Notes under the pieces: generated by a model
Databases searched by the model: none
What the model was told of the DNA's origin: nothing
What the model saw: the letters and a program-made list of their open reading frames with translations, nothing else
Assembly: GCA_963693315.1 (NCBI GenBank)
Contig: OY856186.1
Coordinates: 460,583,272-460,647,271 of the forward strand
Source of the DNA: Diogma glabrata
Lineage: Eukaryota; Arthropoda; Insecta; Diptera; Cylindrotomidae
Direction: 5' to 3'
Length of the DNA stretch: 64,000 nt
Shown: in pieces, positions 20,531-64,000 of the stretch
How positions within the stretch are numbered: position 1 is the first letter of the stretch
How the letters are laid out: each line of letters starts with the position of its first letter
Position numbers and translations under genes: made by a program

Positions 20531-21360
20531 CAATAACACTAATTTTGTTGCAACTTAGAGCATAAGGTTTTTGTAATATTCGAAGTAATTTTACAACTTC
20601 CGGTTTGTCACTTTCGGTTAAATCTTAATCTAGACTTAATTTAAATAGCTTTATCCTATTTTTTTAAATAAATCACAACAACAGCCACAGCTATGAAGTG
20701 TTTTTGAAGAATCTTTGGTTAAATGTTTCAGTTAACATGAGATAGAACAAATTTGCTGTTGAAGTGTATATAGTTGTCGGTGTTCATCAAACATATGGTG
20801 ATCTTTTATCTTACCGATAGGTTATTGTGTTGGACTGTTGGAGATCATTTTTGATATGGGCATTTTAATGATATATATGTGTTATTATTGTTTTCCATAT
20901 CATTCACTGTTTGTGTTATTATGGTTTTCCATATTATTCACTGTTTGTGTGCTTTTGTCACTTTTGAATTAAAATGCAATATTTAAAAATATACTTTTTA
21001 CTGTTTATTTTTAACTTTATTTTATTAATATTAATTTTTTTTAAATATTGGATTTTAATTTTAATGATATCTTTACCTTTCAATACCTGAGTATCAGTTT
21101 GCAGTCTGAGTGTTAGCATAATATTAAATTTCAATATGATTACACATACACACACACACATTCAAATTCTATTTAAATTATTACAATTGATGTGTCGTAT
21201 AATAAATAAATTTGAAATGTTTGGTATTTTAGTATACCTTATCTAGTAACTGGTTCGTTTTTAATCTTACGGGAAGTTCTTGGCGTAGCCCCTATGGTCA
21301 CACCCCAATCCCACTGGTTTTAATTTGATTTGATTTTATAACTAACAACAAATTCAAACA

Positions 21361-22875
21361 AAAAAATATGGACGGGCTGAAATCTTAAGCTCTGAGATAT
21401 CAAGACTTCGGTTTTGGTTAAGGATTTTAATATTGGTTTCGGCATAAAACTTTTATGAGGACATTGTTTTTAATTATCGGCAGCGATGTATAAAACCAAA
21501 CATAAAACCAAACATAAAACTCTTTGTAAAAGTACAAGTATTTTATCTCTGTTTAGAAATTTATTACAAAACTAACACGAAACATCAATTCGTCGTCGGA
21601 AAATTATAACAGATCATACATTAACATAATTTAGTAAAAAGATGATACACTCAGAAAACTACTCAAAAGCCTCTCCATTTAGCGTTTCGAGAAATATTAC
21701 AAAATCAAAAATTTAGATTTCTTTCAGGAATCCAAAAATAATAACAAAATCAAAAATTTAAACTTTTTTTCAAAAATTTAAAAATATTCCAGAAATTATT
21801 AATTCAAATTATTCCCGGAATAATTAATTAAAATCAAAAATTTAAATTTATTCAAAAAATTTTAAATTATTGCGAAAATTATAAAAAATCAAAAATGCAA
21901 ACTTTTTTGAAAATTCTAAAAATATTTTAAAAATTATAACAAAATCAAAAATTGAAACTTTTTTAAAAATTTTAAAAATATTCCAAAAATTCAAACTTTT
22001 TCCAAAATATTGCAAAAACTATAATAAAATCAGAAAAACAAACTTTTTTCAAAATTCCATAAATTATAATAAATCAAAAATTGAATCTTTTTCAAACTTC
22101 TAAAAATATTCCAAAAATTTAAATTCAGACCGAAGTAACTTTTTTCAAAATTCTAAAACTATTGCAATAACTATACCAATATCAAAAAAACAAACTTTTT
22201 TCAAAATTCTAAAAATATCGCAAAATTATAACAAAATCAAAAACACAAACTTTTTTAAAATTCCAAAAATTATAATAAAATCTAACATTTCCATGTCCAA
22301 ATTTCATGTTCATCACATTTCAATTTTCATTTCATACAAATAATTAACTTTATTTTTTCTTCACAAAAATTAGGTAAAAAAACAAAGGCAAATCATTCTT
22401 TTGGCACACTTGACAATAACTTTTTGACAAACTTATAAAGCAATAATCTAGTTTTGGTTTCACATGCCAATCCCGACTAAAAAGATTTCTTTAAATTTAA
22501 GGCTACTACTCATTATCACTTAAAATGAACGTTTTTTAGCAAAAAATATGCGAATTTCGTTGTTTTGACACACTTGACAAAATTTTTTGACACACTTCCG
22601 GTACAGTTATCGAACACATCGTCCTTTCGGTTCATCCTATTGAATATACCTATTTTTAGAAAAAAAAATTTTTGAAATCCCTCAAGCGGCTTTCGAGATT
22701 TCGTCGGTTGTGACGGCAGGCCTGAAGGCCAGCAGACAAACCTTCATTTTTTGTGCTTTTTTAGAATCAGTAGGTCCTAAAACGTCGAGAAATGCCAATA
22801 AAAGTGGGGGTAAGAATTCCACTTTTGGCTCATGAATGTAATACTTAGGTTTTTTCAAAACTGAAGTAATAAAAC
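21361..22875 (-). repeat. Dispersed repeat R1, copy 2
   Basis: In plus-strand order it reads from GGACGGGCTGAAATCTTAAG and GAGATATCAAGACTTCGGTT through a long AAATTATAACAAAATCAAAA minisatellite (21690-22290). It then passes the TTGACACACTTGACAA, CAGTTATCGAACACATCGTC and AAAACGTCGAGAAATGCC blocks and ends at ..ACTGAAGTAAT near 22873. Nothing in it looks coding. Confidence 0.8.
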
Positions 22876-23045
22876 ACAGTTAGAAATTTTGAATTATCAT
22901 ATTGAAAAATTTGATTTAATTTGATAAATTTGATGTTTACTCGCAAACACCGTATATCGAATATTTAATTCTTTTATTGTGGTTACTCACATTCGCCCAT
23001 AAAAAACAAACAAAATATAGTAGTACAAATTTTATAAATCGAGTA

Positions 23046-24574
23046 CAGTAGTCCCTCCGACTGCGCGGTAGTTCCGTTCCAGAAAAACAGCGCGCAATAC
23101 AAAACCGCGCAATGTGAACCCTATTTTGCATGAAAATGGGAGGTTCGGTTCCAAATTTTGAAAAAAATTCCAAAAAAAAAAATAATTTAAAGTTATAATT
23201 AAACAAAAATGAATATATTCAGCCTGAAATACATGTATTACTTCGACAACTCTTAAAAAGAAAACACTTCATAAGTTAACAGATAAATTAACATAAATAA
23301 CATTTCAAAAAACAACTCAAATTTTAAAAAATAATATCAATAATATAAATTTGTTTAGAATATTCTACCTTTCTTTACTGGCTTGAAATTGAATTTGATC
23401 TATATTGAATGTTCCAGCCACACAGTTAAAAATAAACTGAATTTGTAATGCAAATTGCTACATATATGGGTCATTCTTTTACAAACAAAACACATTTTTG
23501 ATTTGGCTGAAATTTGTTTCAGAACTTTTATAAAGGAAAATTCCCAAATTCCCATTTCCCAAGAGAAAAAGATATACGTGCTCGAGAATTTTTTTTTTCG
23601 AAAATAGAACGGTTCTAAATTTCGAGGATTTCGTGATTATTGACTGGAAGACTTATTTTATAAGATTCATAACTTCGGTTCTGGTAGTGATGGAATTTTT
23701 TTTCTGTTTTATTTTAAAGCTAAAAGATAAACTTTAAAAAAAATCGTTATCTACAAAAATTATTAACAAATTCCTATGTGTAAACAGTTTAGCAATAAGT
23801 CAGACACTTTCTCTCTGACACCTGCAATTTTGCTCTCTCGTGCAAGAGTAGCATTAGAAATAAATTAATTTATCGAGCACGGAAAGACAAAATATTCCAT
23901 AAATTTTTGTTGTCCCGCGCTGGATAAATTAATTTATTTCTAACAGTAAAACTAATTTCTCCCTTAATAAAAAATCCATTTTTCTTGAAAATTGAACGTA
24001 GAATATGGTTATGTCAAATACTCTTTATCTTTGTAAAGCAATCACTAAAAATCGATTTTAACATTTTATTTATTTATAACAAAAGGAATTCGCTAATAAT
24101 AGTTATTGAATATATTTTTTTATTAAAATTCCATCTCTTAACTTTAAGATAAAATAAAACAAAAGCTTCTATCATTAATAGAACCGAAGTTATGAATTTT
24201 TGAAAATAAGCCGTCAAGCCAAAAATCATGAAATTCTCGAAATTTAGATCGCTTCTACTTTCCAAAAAAAAAATCCTCGAACACGTATATTTCTTTCGAT
24301 ATCATACCCATAAAAAATTTTTTAAGCCAAATCACAAATGCGTCCGGTCAGATTTTGTTCAAATCTGTTCGATTTGTAAAAGAATGACCCATATGGCAAA
24401 TTTAATTTTTTTTTCATTTTAATTTTACGAAATTCACCTACATATTCTAAAAAAAGTTTTTAAACGTCGCGCAGTGTGAAATTTTAATCGCGCAGTGCGA
24501 AAATTAGTATTAAAAACTCATCTCGCGCAGTGGAAATCGCACAGTTAGAACCCGCGCAGTCGGAGGGATTACTG
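23046..24574. mobile_element. pogo/Tigger-type element (non-autonomous, 1.53 kb)
   Basis: TIRs are CAGTAGTCCCTCCGACTGCG on the left and, as complement, CAGTAATCCCTCCGACTGCG on the right, each flanked by TA (23044-23045 and 24575-24576). GCGCAGT/GCGCAAT words recur within ~100 bp of each end. CAGT..TCCCTC ends with TA duplication are characteristic of pogo/Tigger elements. The middle is occupied by a 0.93-kb foldback element, and no transposase frame is found. Confidence 0.85.
23464..24397. mobile_element. Complete foldback MITE nested in the Tigger-type element
   Basis: The outer tips are ATATGGGTCATTCTTTTACA and its complement TGTAAAAGAATGACCCATAT. Arms of several hundred bases continue inward (TTTTTGATTTGGCTGAAATT; ATAACTTCGGTTCTGGTA; AATTAATTTATTTCTAACAG near the centre). 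Partial relatives are at 2602-2900, 8930-9480, 17398-17580 and 58488-58880. It is the best full-length reference in the window. Confidence 0.75.
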
Positions 24575-24576
24575 TA

Positions 24577-25617
24577 CTAATTTTTCACTAATAATTAAAG
24601 TACGATATCTTTCATGAACTATAGTATCGAACAGCCTTGTATATAATATATGTTATAAAATAAATACAAACATTATTGCATACAAATAAAATAAAACTTA
24701 CAGTTTCTTTCACTGCAAAAGCGCTTTTGTGGTCAGAATTCTGATAGCTATAAAAATAAAATTTATAATTTAACTTAAATTATACAAAGTCCCTTTTTCT
24801 TCCTTGATACCCATACACGGCCTTTTACGTTTACGAATTGTATTTAATTTTAGCACATTTGCTTTAATTCCGCTTGATATCAGTTGAATATAATATTAGT
24901 TGAATTCGGAAAATGTTAATTTGAAGAAATTTTTTGTCAAAAAATTCCAAGCATATCCCGTTGTATTCTATGTAATAGTTCATAAAACAACTACAATATA
25001 TATAACGGTATGTATGAATACTGAACGACTTATTATAATTATAATGATGAGAATTGATCACTGATGTGATTACTGCTTTGAGTACGACTTGTTGCTGCTG
25101 ACGTTTGGAAGTACACCACCCAAAACGTGGTAATCAACACGTAATTGAATAGTTTCCTTATTCTCAAGAAAAGTGGATATTCCTGAACCTATGCGTGGGA
25201 AAAGATTGTTGCACTAATTATTATGCTAACACAAAAGGATGTATATATATATTTTACCGTCAATACTATAGATTATAAGACACAAATCAAAATTTTAAAA
25301 TATGTTTCCGCCAAAACAGTTGTATGGTATATTATAATTTACAATCTATTATAATCTACAATTAATTCTATTACAAAAATTTAAATGTGGGTACACAATA
25401 AATGAAACCCGCAGTAATTTGCTTCCAATTTCACTAGGCACAAATCTATAAACAAAAGTTCAAGCTGTAGGTATATCCGCTTGAAATTGGTAGATTTCGG
25501 GATCAGACAGTTTTGTGTAGAAGTAGAATCGGATTCATCAAATTAGTTAACATGTTAGTTAAACATGAATTCCAAACAGAATTATCAAACGCACTTTAAA
25601 AAAACTAAATAGAAACA
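24577..25617. other. Non-coding stretch
   Basis: AT-rich with no supported frame. It includes a copy (about 25455-25600) of the GGTAGATTTCGGGATCA repeat also seen at 1755-1895. Confidence 0.5.
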
Positions 25618-28127
<2,510 letters not shown>

Positions 28128-31100
28128 AAAATGTGTGTCTGGCTGCCGGCTGGCCGCCGTCATTACCTACGCTGCAGGGAAAACCGCTGGAGGGATTTCA
28201 AAATTATTTTTTTTCTAAAATTAGGTATACTTAAGGGACAGGTCCGAAAGGACGCTCTGTTCGATAACTGTACCGAAAGTGTGTTGAAAAAATCATTATG
28301 TGTGTCAAAAATAGCAAATTTTCATATTACTTCGGTCTGAAAGACCTAAGTATTACATTCATGAGCTCAAAGTGAAATTCTTACCCCCACTTTTTTTGGC
28401 ATTTCTCGACGTTTTAGGACCTACTGATTCTAAAAAAGCAAAAAAAAAAAATGTATGTCTTTCTGTCAGCCGGCCGTCCGGCCGTCCGTCCGTCATTACC
28501 TACGCTGCAGGGAAAACGGCTGGAGAGATTTCAAAATTTTTTTTTTTAAAAATAGGTATACTCAAGGGACAGGCCTGAAAGGACGCTGTGTTCGATAACT
28601 GTACCGGAAGTGTGTCAAAAAAATCATTATGTGTGTCAAAAATAGCAAATTTTCATGTTTTTGGCTTAAAAAACGTTCATTTTAAGTGATTACGAGTAGG
28701 AACATTAAAGTTGGAGAAATCTTAATGGTCGGGATTGGTATGTGAGATCAAAAACTAGATTATTGCATTATAAGTTTGTCAAAAAAATGTTGTCAAGTGT
28801 GTCAAAAGAAAGATTTTTATTTATTTTTTTACCTAATTTTTTGGAAAAAACATAAAATTTATTGTTTGTTTGAAATGAAGTTTTATTATTATTATTGAGA
28901 ATTATGGCATTATAAGTTTGTCAAAACAATGTTGTCAAGTGTGTCAAAAGAAATTTATTTATTTTTTTACCTAATATTTTGGAAAAAAAATAAAATTAAT
29001 TGTTTGTTTGAAATGAAGTTTTATTATTATTATTGAGAATTATGGCATTATAAGTTTGTCCAAAAAATAATGTCAAGTGTGTCAAAAGAAAGATTTTTAT
29101 TTATTTTTTTACCCAATTTTTTAGAAAAAAATAAAATTGTTTTCTGAAATGAAATTTTATTATTATTATTGAGAATTATGGCATTATAAGATTGTCAAAA
29201 AATGTTGTCAAGTGTGTCAAAAGAAAGGTTTTTATTTATTTTTTACCCAAATTTTTTAGAAAAAAATAAAATTAATAGTTTGTATGACATGATATTTTAT
29301 TATTATTATAGAGAATTATGGCAATATAAGTTTGTCAAAAAATAATGTCAAGTGTGTCAAAAAACGATTTTATTTATTTTTAGCCAATTTTTTGGAAAAA
29401 AAATGTAGCTGTTTTTATGACGTAAATGTAATTTAAAAATGAAATTGGACATGGAAATTTTTGAATTTGTTATAGTTTTTGAAATATTTTCGGAATTTTG
29501 AAAAAGTTTGTATTTTTGATTTTGTAATAATTTTTGCAATATTTTAAGAATTTCGGCAAAAGTTTTAATTTTTGATTTTGTAAGAATTTTTGGAATATTT
29601 TTAGAATTTTGAAAAATTTTTAATTTTTGATATTATTATAATTTTTGGAATTTTGAAAAAATTTTTAATTTTTGATTTTGGAACGAATTTTTGCAATACT
29701 TTTAGAATTCTGGAAAAAGTTTGAATTTTTAAGAATTTTTGAAATATTGTTGGAATTTAGAAAAATTTAAATATTTGATTTTATTCTAATTTTTGGAATA
29801 TTGTTGGAATTTTGAAAAAGTTCGATTTCATTTAATTTAACAATATTTTTGAAATTTTGATTATAATTTTCCGGCAACGTATTGATGTTTCGTGTTAGTT
29901 TTGTAATAAATTTTTAAACAGATATAAAAAATACTAGTACTTTAACAAAGAGTTATGTTTGATAAACATCGCTACCCGGAACTAAAAACCATGTCCTCAT
30001 AAATGTTTTTTGCCGAAAACTATATCAAAATCCTTAACCCAGACCGAAGTCTTGATATCTCAGAGCTGTGAGATTTCAGCCCCTCCATATTTTTTGGCTT
30101 AAAAAACGTTCATTTTAAGTGATTACGAGTAGGAACATTAAACTTGGAGAAATCTTGATGGTCGGGATTGGTATGTGAGATCAAAAACTAGATTTTTGCA
30201 TTATAAGTTTGTCAAAAAAATGTTGTCAAGTGTGTCAAAAGAAAGATTTTTATTTATTTCTTTACCCAATTTTTTGGAAAAAAAATAAAATTAATTGTTT
30301 GTTGGAAATGAATTTTATTATTATTATTGAGAATTATGGCATTATAAGTTTGTCAAAAAAATGTTGTCAAGAGTGTCAAAAGAAAGTTTTTATTAATTTT
30401 TTTTTTTAGTTTAACAATATTTTTAGAATTTTTATTATAATTTTCCGGCAACGTATTGATGTTTCGAGTTAGTTTTGTAATAAATTTTTAAACAGAGATA
30501 AAAAATACTTGTACTTTAACAAAGAGTATGTTTGATATACATTGCTGCCCAAAACTAAAAACCATGTCCTCATAAAGTTTTTTGCTGAATACTATATCGA
30601 AATCCTTAACCCAGACCGAAGTCTTGATATCTCAGAGCTGTGGGATTTCAGCCCCTCCATATTTTTATTTTTATTATTGAGAATTATAAGTTAGTCAAAA
30701 AAATAATGTCAAGCGTGTCAAAGAAATGATATCATTTATTTTTTTAGATAATTTTTTGGAAAAATAAATTTAGCTGTTTGTTTACGTTTGAATTTGTTAT
30801 AGTTTTTGAAATATTTTTAAAATTTTGGAAAATTTTAAATTTTTGATTTTATTATAATATTTATGATTATGGAAAAAGTTTCAATTTTTGATATTGTTAT
30901 AATTTTTGCAATATTTTTAGAGTTTTGTAAAAAGTTTGAATTTTTGAATTTTTAAGAACTTTTGGAATATTATCAGAATTTAGAAGAAGTTTAAATTTTT
31001 GATTTTATTCTAATTTTTGGAATATTTTTAGAATTTTGAAAAAAAAATAGAATTTTTGAATTATATATACACATATTTTTAGAATTTTGAAAAAAGTTTC

Positions 31101-31605
31101 AATTTTTGATTTTGTAAGAATTTGTGGAATATTTTTGGAAAAATTTTAAATTTTTGATTTTTTTATAATTTTTATAATTTTGGTAAAAATTACAATTTTT
31201 TATTTTGTTATAATTTTTGCAATATTTTTAGAATTTTTGAAAAAAGTTTTAATCTGTAATTTTGTAATAATTTTTGAAATATTTTTAGAATTTTGTTTTT
31301 AAAAAAGTTTGAATTTGTTATTTTACAAAACGCTAAATGGAGAGGTTTTTGAGTAGTTTGCTGATTGTATAATCCTTTCACTAAATTATGTTAATATATG
31401 ATCTGTTATAATTTTCCAACAACGTATAAATGTTTCGTGTTAGTTTTGTAACAAAAAGTTATGTTTGATATACATCGCTGCCCAAAACTATAAACCATGT
31501 CCTCATAAAAGTTTTTTGCCGAAAACTATATCAAAATCCTTAACCCACACCGAAGTTTTGATATCTCAGTGCTTGAGATTTCAGCCCCTCCATATTTTAT
31601 CTTTA
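28128..31605 (+). repeat. R1 cluster: fragments and copies 4-6 in plus orientation
   Basis: A short fragment (28128-28325) is followed by copy 4 (28327-30092), copy 5 (30093-30665, lacking the left half) and copy 6 (30666-31605, mostly minisatellite). Each ends in TTTCAGCCCCTCCATATTTT. Copy 4 contains five tandem ~128-bp units (28775-29400) each with GGCATTATAAGTTTGTCAAA and TTGTCAAGTGTGTCAAAAGA, followed by the AATTTTTGATTTTGTAATAA minisatellite (29430-29830). GC-rich CCGGCCG words near 28470 and 28140 stand out against the AT-rich background. No protein-like frame is conserved. Confidence 0.75.
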
Positions 31606-45360: not shown

Positions 45361-47665
45361 TTAATTCTTTCCCTTTTGTTTCATATGTGTTTTGATAATG
45401 TTTGTGTAGTTATTCTGCATTCTATTACTATCACATTTGAAATTTGTTGTCCCATCTGTAACCAAAATGAAGGCTGATTCTTTAAACAATCTTTTGAATT
45501 TTTTGGGTTCATATTCTAGGACTAGAGCGTTATCAAAATCGAAATTATCTTGACATTCACTTGAATGTTTAGCTAGTGCAGACCTATGTTGTGACGTTGG
45601 ATATTTTTGTTGTCGAGTAACTCGAACATCATTTTTATGTTGGGATATTCTTGTTTGTAGTGTCTTAGAAGATTCACCTATGTAACATGCACTGCATCCA
45701 CATTCCACCTTGTATATGACACCCGATTTTTTCTCTTGGGGGATCTTATCTTTCAAAGGTGTGAATGATGGAAGCAATGTATTGGTTATTCTGTTGGATA
45801 TCATAGTTTTCTGGGGTTGTTTATATAAATCAGACTTTATTTTCTCCGTTAATTTTGGTTTGAAGTTTTTTGATTAGTTTAATTGGATAATTATTTTTCA
45901 GAAGAATCTCTTGAACTAAATTGATATTCTTCTGTCTAAAGGAGCTATCACTAAGGTAGAAAACTCTTTTTATAAATGACAATGCTACATTATGTTTCAT
46001 CTTGTAGGGATGAGATGAAATGTAGTTTAATAATCTATTGGAAGCTGTGTTCTTACTGTACCAATCCGTTACCATTCTATTATCTTTCCTGATTAATTTC
46101 ATGTCCAGAAAAGGTAAAATATTATGGTTCTCATATTCAACTGTGAATTTTATTCGTTCGTGAAAAGAATTAAATATGTCTCTAACTTCATCTATGGATT
46201 CTATTGGTAAAACTAATAAAAAATCATCAACATATTTTATCAAGAGAGATGGTTTTGTTTTAAGCAGAGGTAATTTTTCTTTTAGTAATTTTTCGAGAAC
46301 TATGTCTGCTAATACGGGAGAGAGGGGGTTACCCATTGGAAGTCCGAAGGTCTGTTTGAAAAGTGTATTATTGTATTGAAAATAATTACTGTTTTTTATA
46401 CATATCTCTAAAATTTCAAAGAAATCTTGTTCTGTCAGATTTGTGTTATTTTCAATTTCAGACCATCTCTCGTGGATAGCCTGTTTAGCAATGTCTATTG
46501 GAATATTAGTAAATAGTGACACTACATCGAACGAAACTAAAACTTCACCAGGCAGTAATACTGTTTTATCTAATAAATCCTTCAACAAATAAGAATTTTT
46601 GATGTTAAATTCACTATTTATTGTAAGATTGTTCAAGATTTTACAACAAAACTTCGCCAAATTGTATGTCGGGGAACCAATAGTAGAAACTATTGGTCGT
46701 AAAGGAAAACCGGATTTATGAATCTTGGGGAGACCATAGATACGGGGAGGAATTGCAGAGGCTATCTTCAACGATAATTTTTGGGCTCTGGTAATTATAT
46801 TGTTTGCACACAATTTGTCTATAATTTTGTTGCATTTATTATTGATTTTAGTTGTGGGATCTATATTTAAAGGTTCATAAGTGTTGTTGTCCGATAACAA
46901 TTCTTCCGTTTTTTGAATGTAATGGTCCTTTTTTAAAATTACCGTCTTATTACCTTTGTCACTCTTTGTTATATTTGTGTTTGGATTATTTTTTATAAAA
47001 CTTTTCAAATTCTTTTTTGCCTTTATTAAAAACTTTTCAGTTTTTGATAATTACGGATTTTTCTTCAGATGTTGAGTTATGGAATTGGTAGTTTTTGCTC
47101 TTATTTCAGATATGGTCTCGGATTTATTGAACTAGTTTAATACATTTTCTAAATCAGCCAGGAGATCAATCACTGGTAAGGATTTAGTTTCCAATGGTAA
47201 ACTGAATTTAGGGCCAAAACTAAGTAAAATGGTACAGTCTTCCGGTAAATTTTCATCGCTTAAATTAACCACACAACCATCATCAAATTTAAAATCCAAA
47301 ACATTTTGTTTGGCATATAACCTAGTGTATTTTTTGTTTAGGATATCATTATGGATTTTTTGTCTGTTCTCTAAGTGTAAAGTTTGCAAATCTAATAGTT
47401 TTTTATATCTTTCGGCGGGTAATACATTCTTCAGTCTAACATTTAATTTTCTTACCTGTCTTTCTATAGTTTTGAGGGTGTGATCACAAATTTTTATTTC
47501 TAAACTAAGAACCTTTTTAAAAAATACGGATTTCATTCTTTGAATGTTGTCATAAAATGGATGGTCTTGTTTTTCCAGAGAGTTAAAGCATTTTCCTTTG
47601 TTTAAAATAAAATTAGGAATTACGTCATTCTTTTTGCATTTTAATAAAAAAAATTTTCCTTTCAT
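45361..47665 (-). pseudogene. Penelope-like retrotransposon polyprotein (RT + GIY-YIG), two stops and one frameshift
   Basis: The reading frame runs from 47665 down. An N-terminal domain (47132-47665) rich in Lys ends at a TAG, and the same frame continues through one more TAA (in 47009-47131). It then reaches the reverse transcriptase frame of 392 residues (45830-47008). That contains SDKGNKTVILKKDHY (16-30), PRIYGLPKIHKSGFPLRPIV (88-107), LVSFDVVSLFTNIPI (157-171), FGLPMGNPLSPVLAD (221-235) and the catalytic YVDDFLLV (259-266), followed by FLDMKL. A one-base shift after about 45830 leads to the endonuclease frame (45361-45804) with SGVIYKVECGCSACYIGESS then LQTRISQHK: the GIY-YIG motif with the Arg of the active site. 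Gene order RT then GIY-YIG is diagnostic of Penelope-like elements, which prime their own target DNA. It needs only three repairs on paper, so it is young, but as it stands it is not translatable. Confidence 0.93.
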
Positions 47666-49424: not shown

Positions 49425-50081
49425 TCCAATAGTTTTTGTCAGTGGGCACGTGAACAAATACAACAAAATCCCAATTTTTTTCGTTACGTACTGTTTTCCG
49501 ACGAGTCGTCTTTTACAATCTATGGAACGGTTAATCGACACAACATGCATTATTGGAGTGCTACAAATCTGCACTGGCTTCGCCAAGTTGAACATCAGCG
49601 TCCTTGGACTGTCAACGTGTGGTGTGAAATAATTGCCAACAAACTCATAGGCCCACACATTATTGAAGGCAACTTGAATGGTCAGATGTATCGAAACGTT
49701 TTGGAAAATGAACTGCCAACATTACTTGAAGATTTGAGCTTAGAAGTGCGACAGAACATGTGGTTTCAACATGACGGTTGTCCAGCACACTATTCGATGG
49801 TAGCACGTGAAGTATTAGATCGTGATTTCAATGGTCGCTGGATCGGTAGAGCTGGTCCGGTAAATTGGCCTGCCAGATCACCAGATTTCTTTTTGTGGGG
49901 CTATCTCAAAGAGAAAGTTTACAAACAAGAACCAACAACACATGAGAATATGATTGGGCGAATCAACAATGCTTGTGCCGAAATTCAAGCAGACACATTT
50001 CTCAGTTATGTACAGTCATTTGAAGAACGGATTAATAAATGCATTGAAGTCGAAGGCCAACATTTTGAACACTTATTTTAA
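49425..50081 (+). pseudogene. Mariner/IS630-superfamily transposase, N-terminus deleted
   Basis: One uninterrupted frame from just inside the TIR to the TAA. NSFCQWAREQIQQNPNF, then YVLFSDESSF (first catalytic Asp), VNRHNMHYWSATN, WTVNVWCEIIANKLIGPHI, MWFQHDGCPAHYS (second Asp), GRWIGRAGPVNWPARSPDFF then LWGYLKEKVY (third acidic residue in SPD), and a C-terminus VEGQHFEHLF. Between SPD and FFLWG about five residues usual in this family (LTPLD-like) are missing. The DNA-binding HTH region is absent, because the frame begins directly at the inner edge of the long TIR, so an internal deletion removed it. This makes the element non-autonomous even though the catalytic part is open. Confidence 0.88.
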
Positions 50082-54830: not shown

Positions 54831-55009
<179 letters not shown>

Positions 55010-55379
55010 GGTGTCCCAGAAAAATTAAAATTGTTTTTTTTTAACGCATACCCTTTAATTTTTTTTCTTTTGTGTCAAAACAACTGTAAAAAAAATTTCA
55101 TGCAATTTAAATAACAGTAACCCGTGCCGACTTGGACCTAAACATCCTCAATACTTTAGCGCGCATACCTGTTTTGATGTGCTTATAATTTCTAAATATC
55201 TTGTCGGTTATACGAATTTTTCTTGAAAAATAAATATTTCCGTCAAACTAGGTAGTTCTAAACAAAAAATATACATGAAAGGTAACCCAAAACTTCCTTC
55301 AAATGGGCAAGCTCTCGTATAGTATTGTTGCATAATATATTGTTTTTTAATATAATACATTTCATACGAAAACAAAGAA

Positions 55380-55741
55380 CAATTTTTGTGCCAAAACTGA
55401 ATAGTTCTATAGACACGCTTGGAATGTTATTTTAGACTGAAAACTCAAGACAAAGTGCAAATTCTCTGCTGTGATACTATAACTACTTCGCATACACATC
55501 GTATGTGTGCGCGTTGAAAAAAATCAATATAGAAAAACTTATTTTCGCTTGCAACCATCACATGTACGAGCTGGTGTTAAAAAGTCTTTTTGAAGTGAAA
55601 ATAAAACAAGTGCCTATAATAAGCCCGGACATTCCACTTTTTCAAAAAATTAGAGATCGTTGGCAAAAAGTTGATCTCCATAAAATAGAATGTTGTAGAG
55701 AAAAGGTAGAATGGTGCCTGTTTCCAAAATTGATAAATTGA
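55380..55741 (+). pseudogene. Relic of a transposon-associated protein of unknown class
   Basis: VQILCCDTITTSHTHRMCA, then after a one-base shift at GCGCG LKKINIEKLIFACNHHMYEL, VLKSLFEVK, SPDIPLFQKIRDRWQKVD and a stop at 55741. I recall hypothetical proteins of arthropods and cnidarians with DTT.SNTG...GACVLLE......ACRHHI.E.....VFE...G.S..PD...F..F...W, and this matches that block pattern. Their function is unknown to me; linkage to a TIR element suggests a transposase. Only ~120 residues remain. The usual start codon is not visible. Confidence 0.55.
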
Positions 55742-55997
55742 AAGTAGATTAAATAATAATAGAAAAAATAATTAAAAGGGAGATATCAATGCTTAAAGCA
55801 TTTCAGCTGTATCGTTCCGATACAGCTAAAAGAGCGGTCTAATTAGTGCAGGACTTGCATTGTTTAATTACAATTGAGGCAATATTTGTTATGTTGCGTA
55901 CAAAAGCACAAGATGTTATATCCGGACTGTAAACAGCAAACATTGAAAAGAAAATATACTCAGTAATAGTTGTTGTAATGAAAAATAATATTAAAAT

Positions 55998-57036
55998 ATG
56001 GAGGGACTCAAATCTCAAGCTCTGAGATATCAAGACTTCGGTCTGGATTAAGGATTTTGATATAGTTTTCGGCAAAAAACTTTTATGAGGACATTGCTTT
56101 TAGTTTTTGGCAGCGATGTATATCAAACATAAAACTCTTTGTTAAAGTATAAATATTTTTTTATTTCTGTTTAGAAATTTATTACAAAACTAACACGAAA
56201 TATTGATAAGTGCCGGAAAATTATAACAGATCATAAATTAATATAACTTACTGAAATGATGAAACACCCAGCAAACTACTCAAAAACCTCTCCATTTAGC
56301 GTTTCAAGAAAATATTACAAAACCAAATATTCATGGTTCTTTCAAAATTCAAAAAATATTGCAAAAATTAAAATAAAATAAAAAATTTAAACTTTTTTTT
56401 AAAGTTCTAAAAACATTCCAAAAATTATTACAAAATCAAAAATTTAAACTTTTTTCAAAAATTCAAAAATTTTTAAAATATTCCAAAAATTATAACAAAA
56501 TCAAAAATTTCCATGTCCAATTTCATGTTCGATAACATTTCATGTCAAACAAATAATTAATTTCATATTGTTCCAAAAAATTAAGTAAAATGAAAATCAT
56601 TCTTTTGACACACTTGACAACATTTTTTGACAAACTTATAACGCAATAATCTAGATTTTGGTTTCACATACCAATACCGACCATCAAAATTTCTCTAAAT
56701 TCAATGTTCCTATTCGCAATCACTTAAAATGAACGTTTTTAAGCAAAAAATAGGCATATTTCCTTGTTTTGACATACTTGACGATTTTTTTTGACACACT
56801 TCCCGTACAGTTATCGAACACATTGTCATTTTGGCTGTTACAATTGAGTAATCCTATTTTTAGAAACAAAAATTTTTGAGATCCCTTCCAGCGGTTTTCT
56901 AGATTTCGTCGGTTGTGACGGCAGACAGACATACAGTTTTTTTTAGAATCAGTAAGTCCTAAAACGTCGATAAATGTGGTAAGAATTTCATTTTTGGATC
57001 GAGAATGTAATACTTAGGACTTTCAGACCGAAGTAA
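55998..57036 (-). repeat. Dispersed repeat R1, copy 7
   Basis: From TATGGAGGGACTCAAATCTC through the minisatellite (56330-56500), TTTTGACACACTTGACAACA and CGGTTGTGACGGCAGACAGA to CTTTCAGACCGAAGTAAT. Its target was inside the GGGTGTCCC element. Confidence 0.8.
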
Positions 57037-57277
57037 TATCTTTTTCTAATTCATTGGCGTTTTATTTAATGAGAGTAAAATAATTTCTCAAATAATTGCA
57101 CAGTAATCGCAGTAAAAGCTCGTATGTTAAAGTTCAACTTCAAGTCGGCACGGGTTATCGTCATCCAATCGCAGTAAAACTTTTAATTTAAGTTTTTAAG
57201 GTTAATTGGAAAAAATTTAGCGGGTATGCGTATAAAATTTTGCAAAAAAATTTTTTTGCTCTATTTTTTGGGACACC

Positions 57278-57280
<3 letters not shown>

Positions 57281-57311
<31 letters not shown>
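57281..57311. repeat. (TA)n microsatellite, last segment
   Basis: Short TA run immediately after the GGGTGTCCC element, the right shoulder of the split array. 57320-58028 shows no gene or repeat I can name. Confidence 0.9.
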
Positions 57312-59690: not shown

Positions 59691-59704
59691 CTACACTGAA
59701 AAAA

Positions 59705-60550
59705 TTATGGCGGTGTGAATTGAAAAAACACCTAAAATATATTATTTTTTAATCATTTTTTGAAGTTATTTTATCTGTTGTAAGAATAATATTAGTAATT
59801 TATCCATATGAACTTATTGTAATTTACATTCGATTGCATACATTTTATAACCACTGTCGGTGTTAAACCACTGTCGGTGTTAATATTTTCCTTTTTCAAA
59901 AAACCTTCAAAAATGATTAACACCGATCAGTGTAAAATTTTGAAAAAAAAAATTAAAAACAACGGTATTTTTTGATTTAACTATGCAGTTTTTGTTTAAT
60001 ACACCGAACGGTGTTGATTGCTCATTCCGAAGATCTAATAGACGAATAAAATAATCAGTCGGTCGGCATATTAAGGAAGAGCAACAAGTGACTTTATTTA
60101 ATTTTCTAATTCAGTTAAATCAGTTATAAATATAATAAATAATATGCAATAATCTGCATACATTTTTAATATCCGAGTGGTAATTTAAAATCTATATTTT
60201 CTAAATTAAAACTTTAATATAATCGGCATTTTTAGTGATAATTAAAAGTTATGAGTTATGAGTTTATCTAAAATAAAATGGTGATTATTTTACAAAGTGA
60301 ACATGTCGAACAGTTGACTATTTTCAAATTTTTTGAATAAGTAGTGGAACGCAAATTGTAATTGCACTTAAATAACCATTTTTATTTTTATCAGTATTTT
60401 ATTATCAGTGGTACAGATCGTGGTTTATATATTTTTCTAGTGATATACAACGCTTTGAATGCGTTTAATTTAAAGTATAACGGTAAATATTTTCTAATTT
60501 TACTTTGAATACACCAAACGGTGTTAATTGTGCAACACGTGTTAAAACGA
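59705..60550. promoter_or_regulatory. Subterminal ACACCG..CGGTGT repeats
   Basis: Copies: GGCGGTGTGAATTG (59709), a perfect tandem of the 17-mer ACCACTGTCGGTGTTAA at 59850 and 59867, TTAACACCGATCAGTGTAAA (59917), TACACCGAACGGTGTTGATT (60000), TACACCAAACGGTGTTAATT (60510) and CAACACGTGTTAAAACG (60533). The shared core is a near-palindrome AACACCG-N2-CGGTGTTAA. Such clustered short repeats near one end are typical transposase-binding sites of CACTA elements. Confidence 0.75.
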
Positions 60551-60766
60551 GTAAAATTATTTTAGTTGAACTGGATAATTACATTCATAATTTTTTCAGT
60601 TTAGTTTTCAGATGTCTGATTTTGATATTAAAGTTTGTTCGTTTTCAAGACATCAATTAATCTTTTGTTTTATATTTTATTTTAATGATTTATCCAAATT
60701 TTCGACGATTATCAAGGAACTCATTTTCATATTTCTTAATATCAGTTAACTAAAATTTGTAGTGCA

Positions 60767-62816
60767 ATGACAAACAACAGCTCGGATATGTTTTATTTGT
60801 CATACAATAATGTTTATAAATATGTAACGGTGGAAACTGATGATGAAGCAATTAAACTTATCAATGTCCTACAATCAGGTGAACATATTATATTAATTCC
60901 ACATTGTACAGATCAACTATCAGTCAGTGAATTTAATTTTCATAGGATGCATTAAATTTTTAATGTTATTTCATATATTACAGTGAAAAAACAAATTAGC
61001 TGACTTGATAATTCATGTTTTGCGACATTTTAAGGTTAACTTTTGTATTATTTTGTGTAGGAGCTACTTGTTTTAACATTGATATCACTAAACATAATCT
61101 GTATCTCTGCGACGAGAGAAATGTGGAACTAAATCAAAATACATTTGAAATTATTTTGCGAGATTGCAAACTTACATATGACCGAATGTTCATACTCCGT
61201 GTAATGGATAACAATGGTAATTTTATGATTCTATTTCTCATTCAATTTGTTTTCTAATTAAACATATTTCATTATAGAATCTTACCATTCCGTATCCACG
61301 CAAACCGTAGAGACCAGAATGGAAACTGTATTTGCTGCACCTATCGAAAAGTCGGACTATTTTATAGGATCTATTCCAAAAAAACTGAAATTGGAGGTTA
61401 TAGTATTACAAGAGGTACGTTTTTATGAAATTTATTTTGAGCTGTAATTTCACGATGATTTATATTAAACGATAATTTAATTGCAGGAATTACAAAAATA
61501 TTTAGAGAAACATGCCGAGGGCAAATGTATTTTAGAAATATATAATAAAACCCAAATACTCCCAAAAGCACTGCGGACAAAACTAATAAATATTTTGGTC
61601 GGACATCTCGTTCAAACCCATGGAACATATCCGTCGAGTGAGAACAAAGTATTGTGGGCTAAAGCAACAGCTCTAATTTTTTTTCTATGCTCTGTGAAAA
61701 TAATGATCCGGCCAATTTTGTAAGTGATGTGCTATTTGAAAGTTATAGTAAAACTCAATTTTTAATGTAACGTATATCTGTTTTTTCATCTGTTAGGGAA
61801 TATTCTACAATCCAGTGAATCGAGGCGGCTTCTTCTCATTTAGATTGCGAACTATTAACCGTTCTCTTAATAATAATTCACGTCTTAACAGCCAAGTTGA
61901 GGAAGTAATTATTACTAAGAGGACATAGTCGGAGTCGATATGGAACATTTGGAAGCTTTGGTGGATAACCTGAAACAGCTGTGTCCAAAGAACGATCAGC
62001 ATGAAATTTTTGAACTGATGAAAACAACTATGTGTCTGAGACGAACGCCGTTTACTTTTGAAACGTATCCTAGATATTTAGATACTCCTGGCTTGGTAAT
62101 ACAGTTTTATTTTAATTACCATCGTTTTGTAAATCATGTTTCATTTTTAATAGTTTGTTTTGTATTAATTTAATTTATTATATTCATATAGGTATCATTT
62201 GAGTTTGATTTAAAATATCCAGGCAAATCAGCAGACTTTTTAGTGAAGTGACCACAAATTAAAAACAATATTTTTGAAATTGAACGCGAACGAAATATAA
62301 ACGTATATGATGAGTTTTCAACAGAAGACGATAAATATGAGGAAGATATTACTGCATTTTTAATTTTATCAAAGCTTCTGATGAAAGTGGGTCGGCGCAA
62401 AGGAGATAAATTGCAGAATAATGCAAAAACTATGCTAATTTATTTCAGAAAAGTAAGTCACTAAAAAATCTTTAATAAGTGTTCTTTTTCTTATCTTTCA
62501 TTATTTTTTTCAGACGGGTAATAGGTTTACAATCAACGATTGCAACTCGAAACATCCTATACTTCTAGGAACGGGAACAACTAAGAAAAGTATTCATTCG
62601 TATTGTATTTATATAGATGGAAAGGAGATTCCACTGAAAAAACGTTCTGGTGTTGAAGTGTTTCTAGATTTTTTCAAAAGTTTTTATATATTTTGTTGCT
62701 TATATCCATCAATATTTTATTCATTTTTTCATTTTATTCAGGAAGCATTTTTGAAATTAAATTCAAAAAAATTAACGCCAAGGCTTATTGAACTTAAAAA
62801 TAGAATAATTAATTAA
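60767..62816 (+). pseudogene. SAMD3-like gene, seven exons, lightly damaged
   Basis: Exons by GT-AG and frame: 60767-60878, 61061-61216, 61278-61414, 61487-61719, 61797-62095, 62192-62452, 62514-62816. Phases match at the first three junctions (G|GA, G|AA, phase 0). Start chosen at the ATG giving MTNNSSDMFYLSYNNVYKYV. Later blocks: LEKHAEGKCILEIYNKTQIL, INILVGHLVQTHGTYPSSEN, then NDPANFGIFYNPVNRGGFFS, FRLRTINRSLNNNSRLN, TFETYPRYLDTPGL then VSFEFDLKYPGKSADFLVK, and HPILLGTGTTKKSIHSYCIY then IDGKEIPLKK. These blocks (a 'HG.YPS', a 'NP..RGGF..FRL' and a 'YPR..D.PGL' with 'FDLKYPGK') are those of animal hypothetical proteins annotated SAMD3-like; their function is unknown. Damage: a shift in the T-run near 61680, another near 61915, and TGA for Trp at 62250-62252. 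It may be a TE-encoded second protein. Confidence 0.65.
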
Positions 62817-62852
62817 ATCTTAATTAAAAAAAATATATAAAATAATTTCAAA

Positions 62853-64000
62853 ATGCTTCATTGTAAAATATCAAACTGCAATACTATTTTTCAACACAAC
62901 AAAATATATATTAGACACCTCAGATTAATACATTCGCTCAGTGATTCAACAAATAAGCTTCTACCGTGGCTTTAACACTTGTGATTATTTTTATGAAAGT
63001 TTTAGTGGTTTAGCGAAACATTTTAAAAGCAAGCATACCGGAAATGTTAATATCGGGAAAATTGAATGTTTTGTAACAGATGAATTAATTTGTACAAATA
63101 GCGTTAAACAACCTATGTCTAGTAATGAATTATTGCAAACTAATTATGAATTGGTAGAAGAAAAGTTCTGTGAAAAAATCTTAAAATTAAATCCGACCTA
63201 TAAAAACTACAATACAATATTAGAAGAAGTGACGCAATTGACAAAGACTATAGAAATTAATATTAGGAAAAAGTTAATTGAATCAGTTGGGGTTAATCTA
63301 GAAGATGAGTTAATTTTTTTACAAAACCCTTTCAAATCGTATAATACAACATATAAACGAAAAAAAATAACTTATGCAACCGTTCCTAAACCAAAAGAAT
63401 TTTCTATTGGTATACGACAGGATCGTAGATGGATTTCTAAGGAAGATACTATAAATTGTCAGCAATCAGTGACGAATACTTTCTCATATGTTTCCATTAT
63501 TGAAACACTTACTTTTCTATGTCAAAATCAAACATTTCTCGACAAAATTTTAAATACACATCAACACGAAAATGAATACCATTACACTAACAGAAATTAT
63601 TTCAAGAGAAACCACCTCTTTTCAAGCAATGGACCAACTTTTCATTTGCAATTATACATGGATGAATTTGAAACTGTCAATCCTTTGGGATCGAAAACTG
63701 GAGTACATAAAATTTGTGCATTTTATTTTACGGTGTTAAACTTAGAACATTGCAATAGTCAGGTGCAAAATATTCATTTAGTTGCTCTATGCCATTTTTC
63801 GGATATAAAGGAATTCGGGTATGATCCTATCCTGAAACAAATATTGAAAGACTTATTTGATCTTGAAAATAATGGTATAGTAGTTGAAACTAACGAAAGA
63901 AGTTTTGTAATAAAAGGTACCATTTTTTCACTCTCACATGACAATCTAAGTGCAAATTCTGTTTGTGGTTTTAATGAATCTTTTAAGTCTAATTATTTTT
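62853..64000 (+). pseudogene. C2H2-finger / DEFE-NPLGS transposase-like protein, runs off the window
   Basis: ATG at 62853 (37 bp after the previous stop) opens MLHCKISNCNTIFQ..YIRHLRLIH, a C2H2-type finger. One base too many near 62960 shifts the frame. From 62941 the correct frame is open without a stop to the window edge (353 codons). It has GFNTCDYFYESFSGLAKHFK (second finger with its first Cys changed to Arg in YRGFNTC), LQLYMDEFETVNPLGSKTGV then HKICAFYFTVLNL, LKQILKDLFDLENNGIVVET, and KGTIFSLSHDNLSANSVCGF then NESF. The DEFE..NPLGS...HK, 'DL..LE..GI' and 'DNL.A....GF.ESF' blocks are known to me from a widespread animal hypothetical family with a C-terminal HDLLEG motif. By pattern they correspond to the catalytic domain of tnp2/EnSpm transposases. 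D in MDEFE and DN would be candidate catalytic residues. The remainder is outside the window. Confidence 0.65.

Follow-up and report, generated by a model that had tools for sequence, protein, structure and literature searches.

The window analysed here, a 64,000-nucleotide stretch of the Diogma glabrata genome (C1:460583272-460647271; 1.33 Gb in 1,788 contigs), holds from position 59694 to its right edge the left two thirds of a 6,034-bp element. This is very probably a cut-and-paste DNA transposon of the CACTA/Mirage/Chapaev (CMC) group, about 6.03 kb long, which inserts at TA (once CA), duplicates it and encodes a transposase together with a partner protein, referred to here as the helper. 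A first-pass annotation, made from the letters of the window, had read the region as an EnSpm/CACTA-like transposon with two genes and had called the first of them SAMD3-like. A more far-reaching reading, with a probability of about 0.4, is that the helper represents an ancient family native to transposons whose evolution has run together with that of a RAG1-like, BAH-bearing transposase across deeply diverged families, and that SAMD3-like animal proteins, possibly including SAMD3 outside its SAM domain, are such helpers or were domesticated from them.

The first 301 bp of the element have at least 15 matches in the genome, and 10 kb was taken at each of them (L009-L023, the window copy being L009). 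Ten other uninterrupted copies align to the window copy over about 6.04 kb at 98.7-100% identity, with a divergence of 0-0.76% among the 11, and L010 is 100% identical to it across the aligned 6,034 bp; insertions interrupt three copies, whose pieces are 97.7-100% identical to the window copy, and L023 is a remnant at 87-94%. Homology among the copies begins at the TA preceding CACTG, and their 200-bp flanks show no match to one another. Both ends are readable in 13 of the 15 copies (these counts leave out L020, for which the stretch taken shows no right end, and the remnant L023). All 13 carry a 2-bp flank duplication, TA in 12 and CA in one, whilst none carries the 3-bp duplication that had been predicted at 59691-59693; the window copy has TA at 59692-59693 instead. 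These boundaries and the flank duplication are common to the genome copies and bear out the claim of a transposon: the feature in the window is real, its sequence features are not due to chance, and the transposon has been recently active, with several recent insertions. The parts of the element that lie in the window are as follows.

59692-59693, no strand: left copy of the TA target-site duplication, the right copy standing directly after GTAGTG in L009
59694-59722, plus strand: left terminus CACTGAAAAAATTATGGCGGTGTGAATTG, which matches the right end CACTACAAAAAAAACGGTGT imperfectly in inverted orientation and is the shared start of the copies
59711-60523, plus strand: left subterminal repeat cluster, with CACCG/CGGTG at 59711, 59858, 59875, 59921, 60002, 60009 and 60519
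60767-60878, plus strand: helper exon 1 with the ATG start, from splice junctions
61061-61216, plus strand: helper exon 2, from splice junctions
61278-61414, plus strand: helper exon 3, from splice junctions
61487-61719, plus strand: helper exon 4, 233 bp against 231 bp in open-frame copies (frameshift)
61797-62095, plus strand: helper exon 5, 299 bp against 300 bp in open-frame copies
62192-62452, plus strand: helper exon 6, from splice junctions
62514-62816, plus strand: helper exon 7 with the stop codon, from splice junctions
62853-64000, plus strand: 5' part of the single-exon transposase gene, which continues past the window and is frameshifted near 62966

The left end is CACTG and the right end, 1,727 bp past the window end, is GTAGTG (CACTAC inverted). 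Read inverted, the right end is CACTACAAAAAAAACGGTGTAACTAG, which forms with CACTGAAAAAATTATGGCGGTGTGAATTG a short imperfect inverted repeat in which CACT, an A-rich block and CGGTGT are common to both ends. The inverted end that had been expected downstream does exist, but as CACTAC rather than CACTG. The CACTG terminus at 59694 and the repeat cluster beside it hold up: the window copy contains 12 CACCG/CGGTG motifs, of which ten fall in the 1,050 bp that make up the element's terminal parts, three of these ten lying beyond the window at the right end. Mononucleotide shuffles predict 0.19 there, and the highest count in 2,000 of them was 3. A shorter, non-autonomous element at 59691-60604, where 59691-59709 pairs at 95% with 60586-60604, was considered and rejected, as all uninterrupted copies extend over about 6.03 kb to the right end.

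The two genes follow each other on one strand as had been described, a multi-exon gene and then a DEFE-NPLGS protein. The helper gene (60767-62816) has seven exons with GT-AG introns, and 36 bp separate its stop from the start of the intronless transposase gene at 62853. In four other copies both frames are open, giving a 499-residue helper, encoded by seven exons that canonical introns separate, and a transposase of 789 residues, and the helper splice junctions are present in all 14 copies scanned. In the window copy the helper can be read for 219 codons before a stop, and two frameshifts, one near 62966 and one past the window, split the transposase into frames of 536 and 244 codons; L010 and L011 are broken likewise. 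L009, L010 and L011 are at most 0.03% apart, lie in different flanks and have common frameshifts in both genes. Because they are near-identical, differ in their flanks and have both genes broken, it is most likely that proteins of other copies mobilised them in trans, which suggests that a broken sublineage is spreading by trans-mobilisation.

Both genes lie inside the element and are copied together, as the common outer ends (13 of 13) and the helper junctions (14 of 14) indicate, and the same arrangement is found in other families. A tblastn search with the transposase gave at least 62 genome matches (57 of 1,409 candidates scored), to families at 31-53% identity, several of which have open transposase frames of more than 800 codons. 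Linkage was scored at loci where the 5' end of the transposase match is present, 11 in one set (L024-L034) and ten in another (L035-L044). At all 11 of the former, tblastn places helper-like exons 5' of the transposase and on its strand (the last exons only in L029 and L032). The helper lies upstream in all ten of the latter by spliced profile alignment, with scores of 169-584 compared to 18-26 for ten window pieces, 19-24 for ten reverse strands and 18-28 for 30 shuffles; the scores of L035, L036, L042, L043 and L044 are raised because these loci are close relatives of profile members. The linkage for which the first-pass annotation had proposed to look in further genome copies is present in 21 of 21 loci, about ten families in our grouping besides the window's own (L044), and helper intron positions recur among families.

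An independent search with the helper of the window family gave 136 matches, grouped by us into 31 loci, a grouping that counts C1:126.15 Mb once despite a piece about 7.5 kb away. A transposase match lies downstream on the same strand in 29 of these (27 by the tblastn set, with L045 and L046 in addition, the match at L046 being an N-terminal piece of 50-75 residues only), and the remaining two, C4:89401696 and C1:144015597, are single-exon fragments. A single copy could not have excluded that helper and transposase are two independent repeats adjoining by chance, but this explanation is refuted by the shared junctions, the shared outer ends and the upstream helper at every locus scored, and it retains next to no probability.

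For seven families, the helper core and the transposase give trees of identical topology, one helper node having a support of 0.66, and helper and transposase distances correlate at 0.87, a value equalled by 6 of 5,040 label permutations. For L028-L034 the non-synonymous divergence (dN) is 0.239 in the helper and 0.217 in the transposase, with synonymous differences of 0.73 and 0.70, which are near saturation. So, over long periods, selection has acted to keep the helper about as strongly as it has the transposase, and the pair is deeply conserved within this genome.

These relationships bear on the proposal that the helper derives from a host gene related to SAMD3, captured by the transposon, and did not belong to it from the outset. 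A seven-exon structure in which intron positions recur, next to an intronless transposase, would be in keeping with capture, as would a presumed likeness to motifs of proteins annotated as SAMD3-like, which serves as a lead, no tool result supporting the name. Against this, no SAM domain is seen in the helper, such a domain being absent from the five Pfam families matched at E<=1 by any of seven members scanned (five of them core sequences without the N-terminus). The helper is moreover common to families at 27-48% transposase identity with the same topology, so that any capture must be ancient, and capture is considered unlikely. The same Pfam scan recognised no DNA-binding domain in the seven members, a PDB sequence search with the helper gave one match at E 0.72, and a model of the C-terminal helper exon alone was poor (predicted local distance difference test, pLDDT, 68; predicted template modelling score, pTM, 0.36). 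By eye, helper exons 1-2 (60767-61216) and the upstream exons of L028, L030 and L034 look ubiquitin-like or PB1-like, and other families have an intron at a similar place within the N-terminal helper exons. Helper matches at C1:139751667-139752314 and C4:186985291-186985875 cross exon borders without introns, perhaps as a fused-exon family.

The transposase has two C2H2-like fingers in its N-terminal part, followed by the motifs YMDEFE (D codon at 63661) and NPLGS (63679); its first and second candidate catalytic Asp codons are 63661 and 63940. It retains DDE with C(2)C and H(3)H. The CMC/CMCT clade is defined by DDE with C(2)C and H(3-4)H between the second D and the last E (PMC12730594), and this set is invariant in 49 of 49 homologs of at least 795 residues and present in 9 of 9 transposases of the same genome, from eight families. 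The protein collection yielded 75 transposase homologs, among them proteins labelled uncharacterized, hypothetical or C2H2-type in a hoverfly, beetles, an ant, a killifish, a mussel and a sponge; no relatives were found in phage records, viral contigs or bacterial and archaeal contigs. The predicted model of the homolog P0002 has a RAG1/Transib-like catalytic core fold of the DDE/RNase-H kind, which would place the second protein inside these folds, as had been anticipated, and specifically in the RAG1 type. Residues 663-796 of P0002 are predicted to form a C-terminal BAH-like domain, matched to DNMT1 and BAHCC1 by fold only, the corresponding codons of the element lying past the window end. 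A PDB sequence search with the transposase P0001 gave no match, and one with the transposase alignment matched mainly the N-terminal zinc fingers.

The clean Transposase_21 match that had been expected was not obtained: none of the nine own-genome sequences matches at E<=1, the nearest homolog P0002 gives E = 0.053, and 19 of 49 homologs match at E<=1, the best at 1.2e-05, with the seven scores inspected below the curated cut-off. Precomputed annotation gives PF02992 for P0013 and P0062, and DUF4218 matches of the transposase group are weak. These weak Transposase_21 and DUF4218 matches, with the CACTG/CACTA ends and the subterminal repeats, are the grounds for regarding the element as an ordinary plant-type En/Spm CACTA transposon, an identity contradicted by the 2-bp duplication in 13 of 13 copies, by other families that end in CACAC and by a helper that lies 5' rather than 3', and therefore very improbable. 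The element has the 5'-CA..TG-3' termini (CACTG..GTAGTG) and, at 2 bp in 13 of 13 copies, a duplication within the 2-5 bp of CMC/CMCT elements. Because the CMC features are present whilst a 3-bp duplication and CCC ends are absent, it is filed as a CMC variant and not as En/Spm proper, and the interpretation first proposed is borne out in part.

Ends were read in some related families as well. L027, with a transposase about 31% identical, is 6,005 bp long (L027 2163-8167, in reverse-complement orientation) and has a perfect 15-bp inverted repeat, CACACTCAAAATTTT, with TA on both sides; it sits in a retrotransposon-like frame whose translation breaks off at ...LLALTSY ahead of the element and resumes with IEAGYQKQ... 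behind it, the halves adjoining the TA repeats. L028 is 5,610 bp long with CACACTT ends and TA on both sides; the termini of both are CACAC..GTGTG with TA, and the left end of L024/L025, in the 48% family, is CACACAAAAAAAT with TA. A pattern scan for the ends of L029-L034, where little downstream DNA is covered, gave nothing convincing. A CAC left end is seen in four families, and the right end is readable in three.

Several points weigh against the main reading, that of a CMC-group transposon with a conserved gene pair and a RAG1-like transposase. No helper homologs were found in the protein collection, either with a single sequence at E up to 10 or with a seven-member alignment; a fast-evolving multi-exon protein is easily missed there, because such searches need shared five-residue words. 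All 21 linkage loci come from one genome, and transposase matches at C3:205.1, C3:254.7, C194, C5:6.9 and C1:194.0 Mb, which lack the 5' end, fall outside the count, the partial copies at the first two having no match in the helper search. The protein modelled is P0002, a 47% identical homolog and not the element's own transposase, and the right terminal inverted repeat (TIR) of L024/L025 is not recognisable. Among ten copies of the window family variation is 2.8% in helper exons and 1.6% in introns, with 31 non-synonymous, 9 synonymous and 2 stop changes; coding constraint is invisible inside this family, as expected of young, decaying copies.

By analogy, the element would work like a cut-and-paste transposon of the CACTA/Transib type with a partner protein. 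The transposase, with its N-terminal fingers and RNase-H core, would cut beside the CAC..GTG ends and carry out strand transfer with a 2-bp stagger. In maize Spm, TNPA binds or bridges subterminal repeats, and the helper may act with the transposase in a similar manner, the most likely mode being to bind or bridge repeats of the CACCG type. The BAH-like C-terminal domain may steer the transposase to marked chromatin, and the window copy, without either full-length protein, would most likely have been moved by proteins of other copies. The helper may instead be a passenger that protects the element, by countering silencing or controlling transposase expression, and is kept for copy survival; this is a doubtful but serious possibility. 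The failure to recognise a DNA-binding domain agrees with it, the ubiquitin-like or PB1-like look of the N-terminal exons would suit protein-protein contacts, and accessory anti-silencing genes have been proposed for fungal transposons (PMC12730594). On the other side, subterminal repeats at both ends suggest the need of a repeat-binding protein, although the transposase fingers could serve, and the fixed 5' position and the same tree fit both readings.

Elsewhere in the window, 55008-57282 is a stretch of about 2.3 kb with inverted ends AGGGTGTCCCA and flanking AT repeats, and a large foldback region at about 21300-31600 has many inverted-repeat arms and a mirrored GC skew of -0.22 / +0.21. 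By eye, the open frame at 45830-47050 (minus strand) resembles a Penelope-type reverse transcriptase and that at 49425-50081 (plus strand) a mariner-type transposase.

Should the helper prove native to the transposon, the pair would join RAG1/RAG2 as a second natural example in which a transposase of RAG1 fold works with a dedicated partner and a module that reads chromatin. A co-evolving linked second gene without a known domain suggests that this group of CACTA-type transposons needs a partner protein. For annotation, helper-type proteins and the transposase relatives now labelled uncharacterized, hypothetical or C2H2-type are likely transposon proteins.

Among known systems, Transib, ProtoRAG and RAG1 share the RAG1-like catalytic core fold predicted from P0002, but Transib/RAG1 transposases duplicate 5 bp of target rather than 2 bp. 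RAG2, the partner of RAG1, is a kelch-PHD protein with a chromatin reader, whereas the helper has no such domain in Pfam and the BAH-like domain is at the C-terminus of the transposase, where it would parallel the RAG2 reader. Plant En/Spm CACTA elements have in common with this element the CACTA-type ends, subterminal repeats at both ends, a transposase with a second protein and Transposase_21/DUF4218 traces, but differ in their 3-bp target-site duplication and in gene order. No description of the gene pair was seen in the part of the literature on SAMD3, CACTA, EnSpm, BAH domains and transposases that was covered, passages of PMC4298943 included; papers on BAH with transposases alone may lie outside that part, and Repbase may contain an entry for the family. 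Fungal ESTA elements share an EnSpm-like transposase, TA duplications and the C(2)C and H(3-4)H motifs, but are fungal and described with a TET/JBP gene (PMC12730594). The TRC elements of animals (SmTRC1 of Schistosoma, TRC of Tribolium and Aedes), according to PMC1636069, share a 2-bp duplication, a Transposase_21-related transposase and several spliced products, but have a TIR core of CCC in place of CAC and, in SmTRC1, a transposase frame of 560 rather than 789 residues; in SmTRC1 and, as cited there, in maize Spm, the second protein lies 3' of the transposase, whereas the helper described here lies 5' of it.

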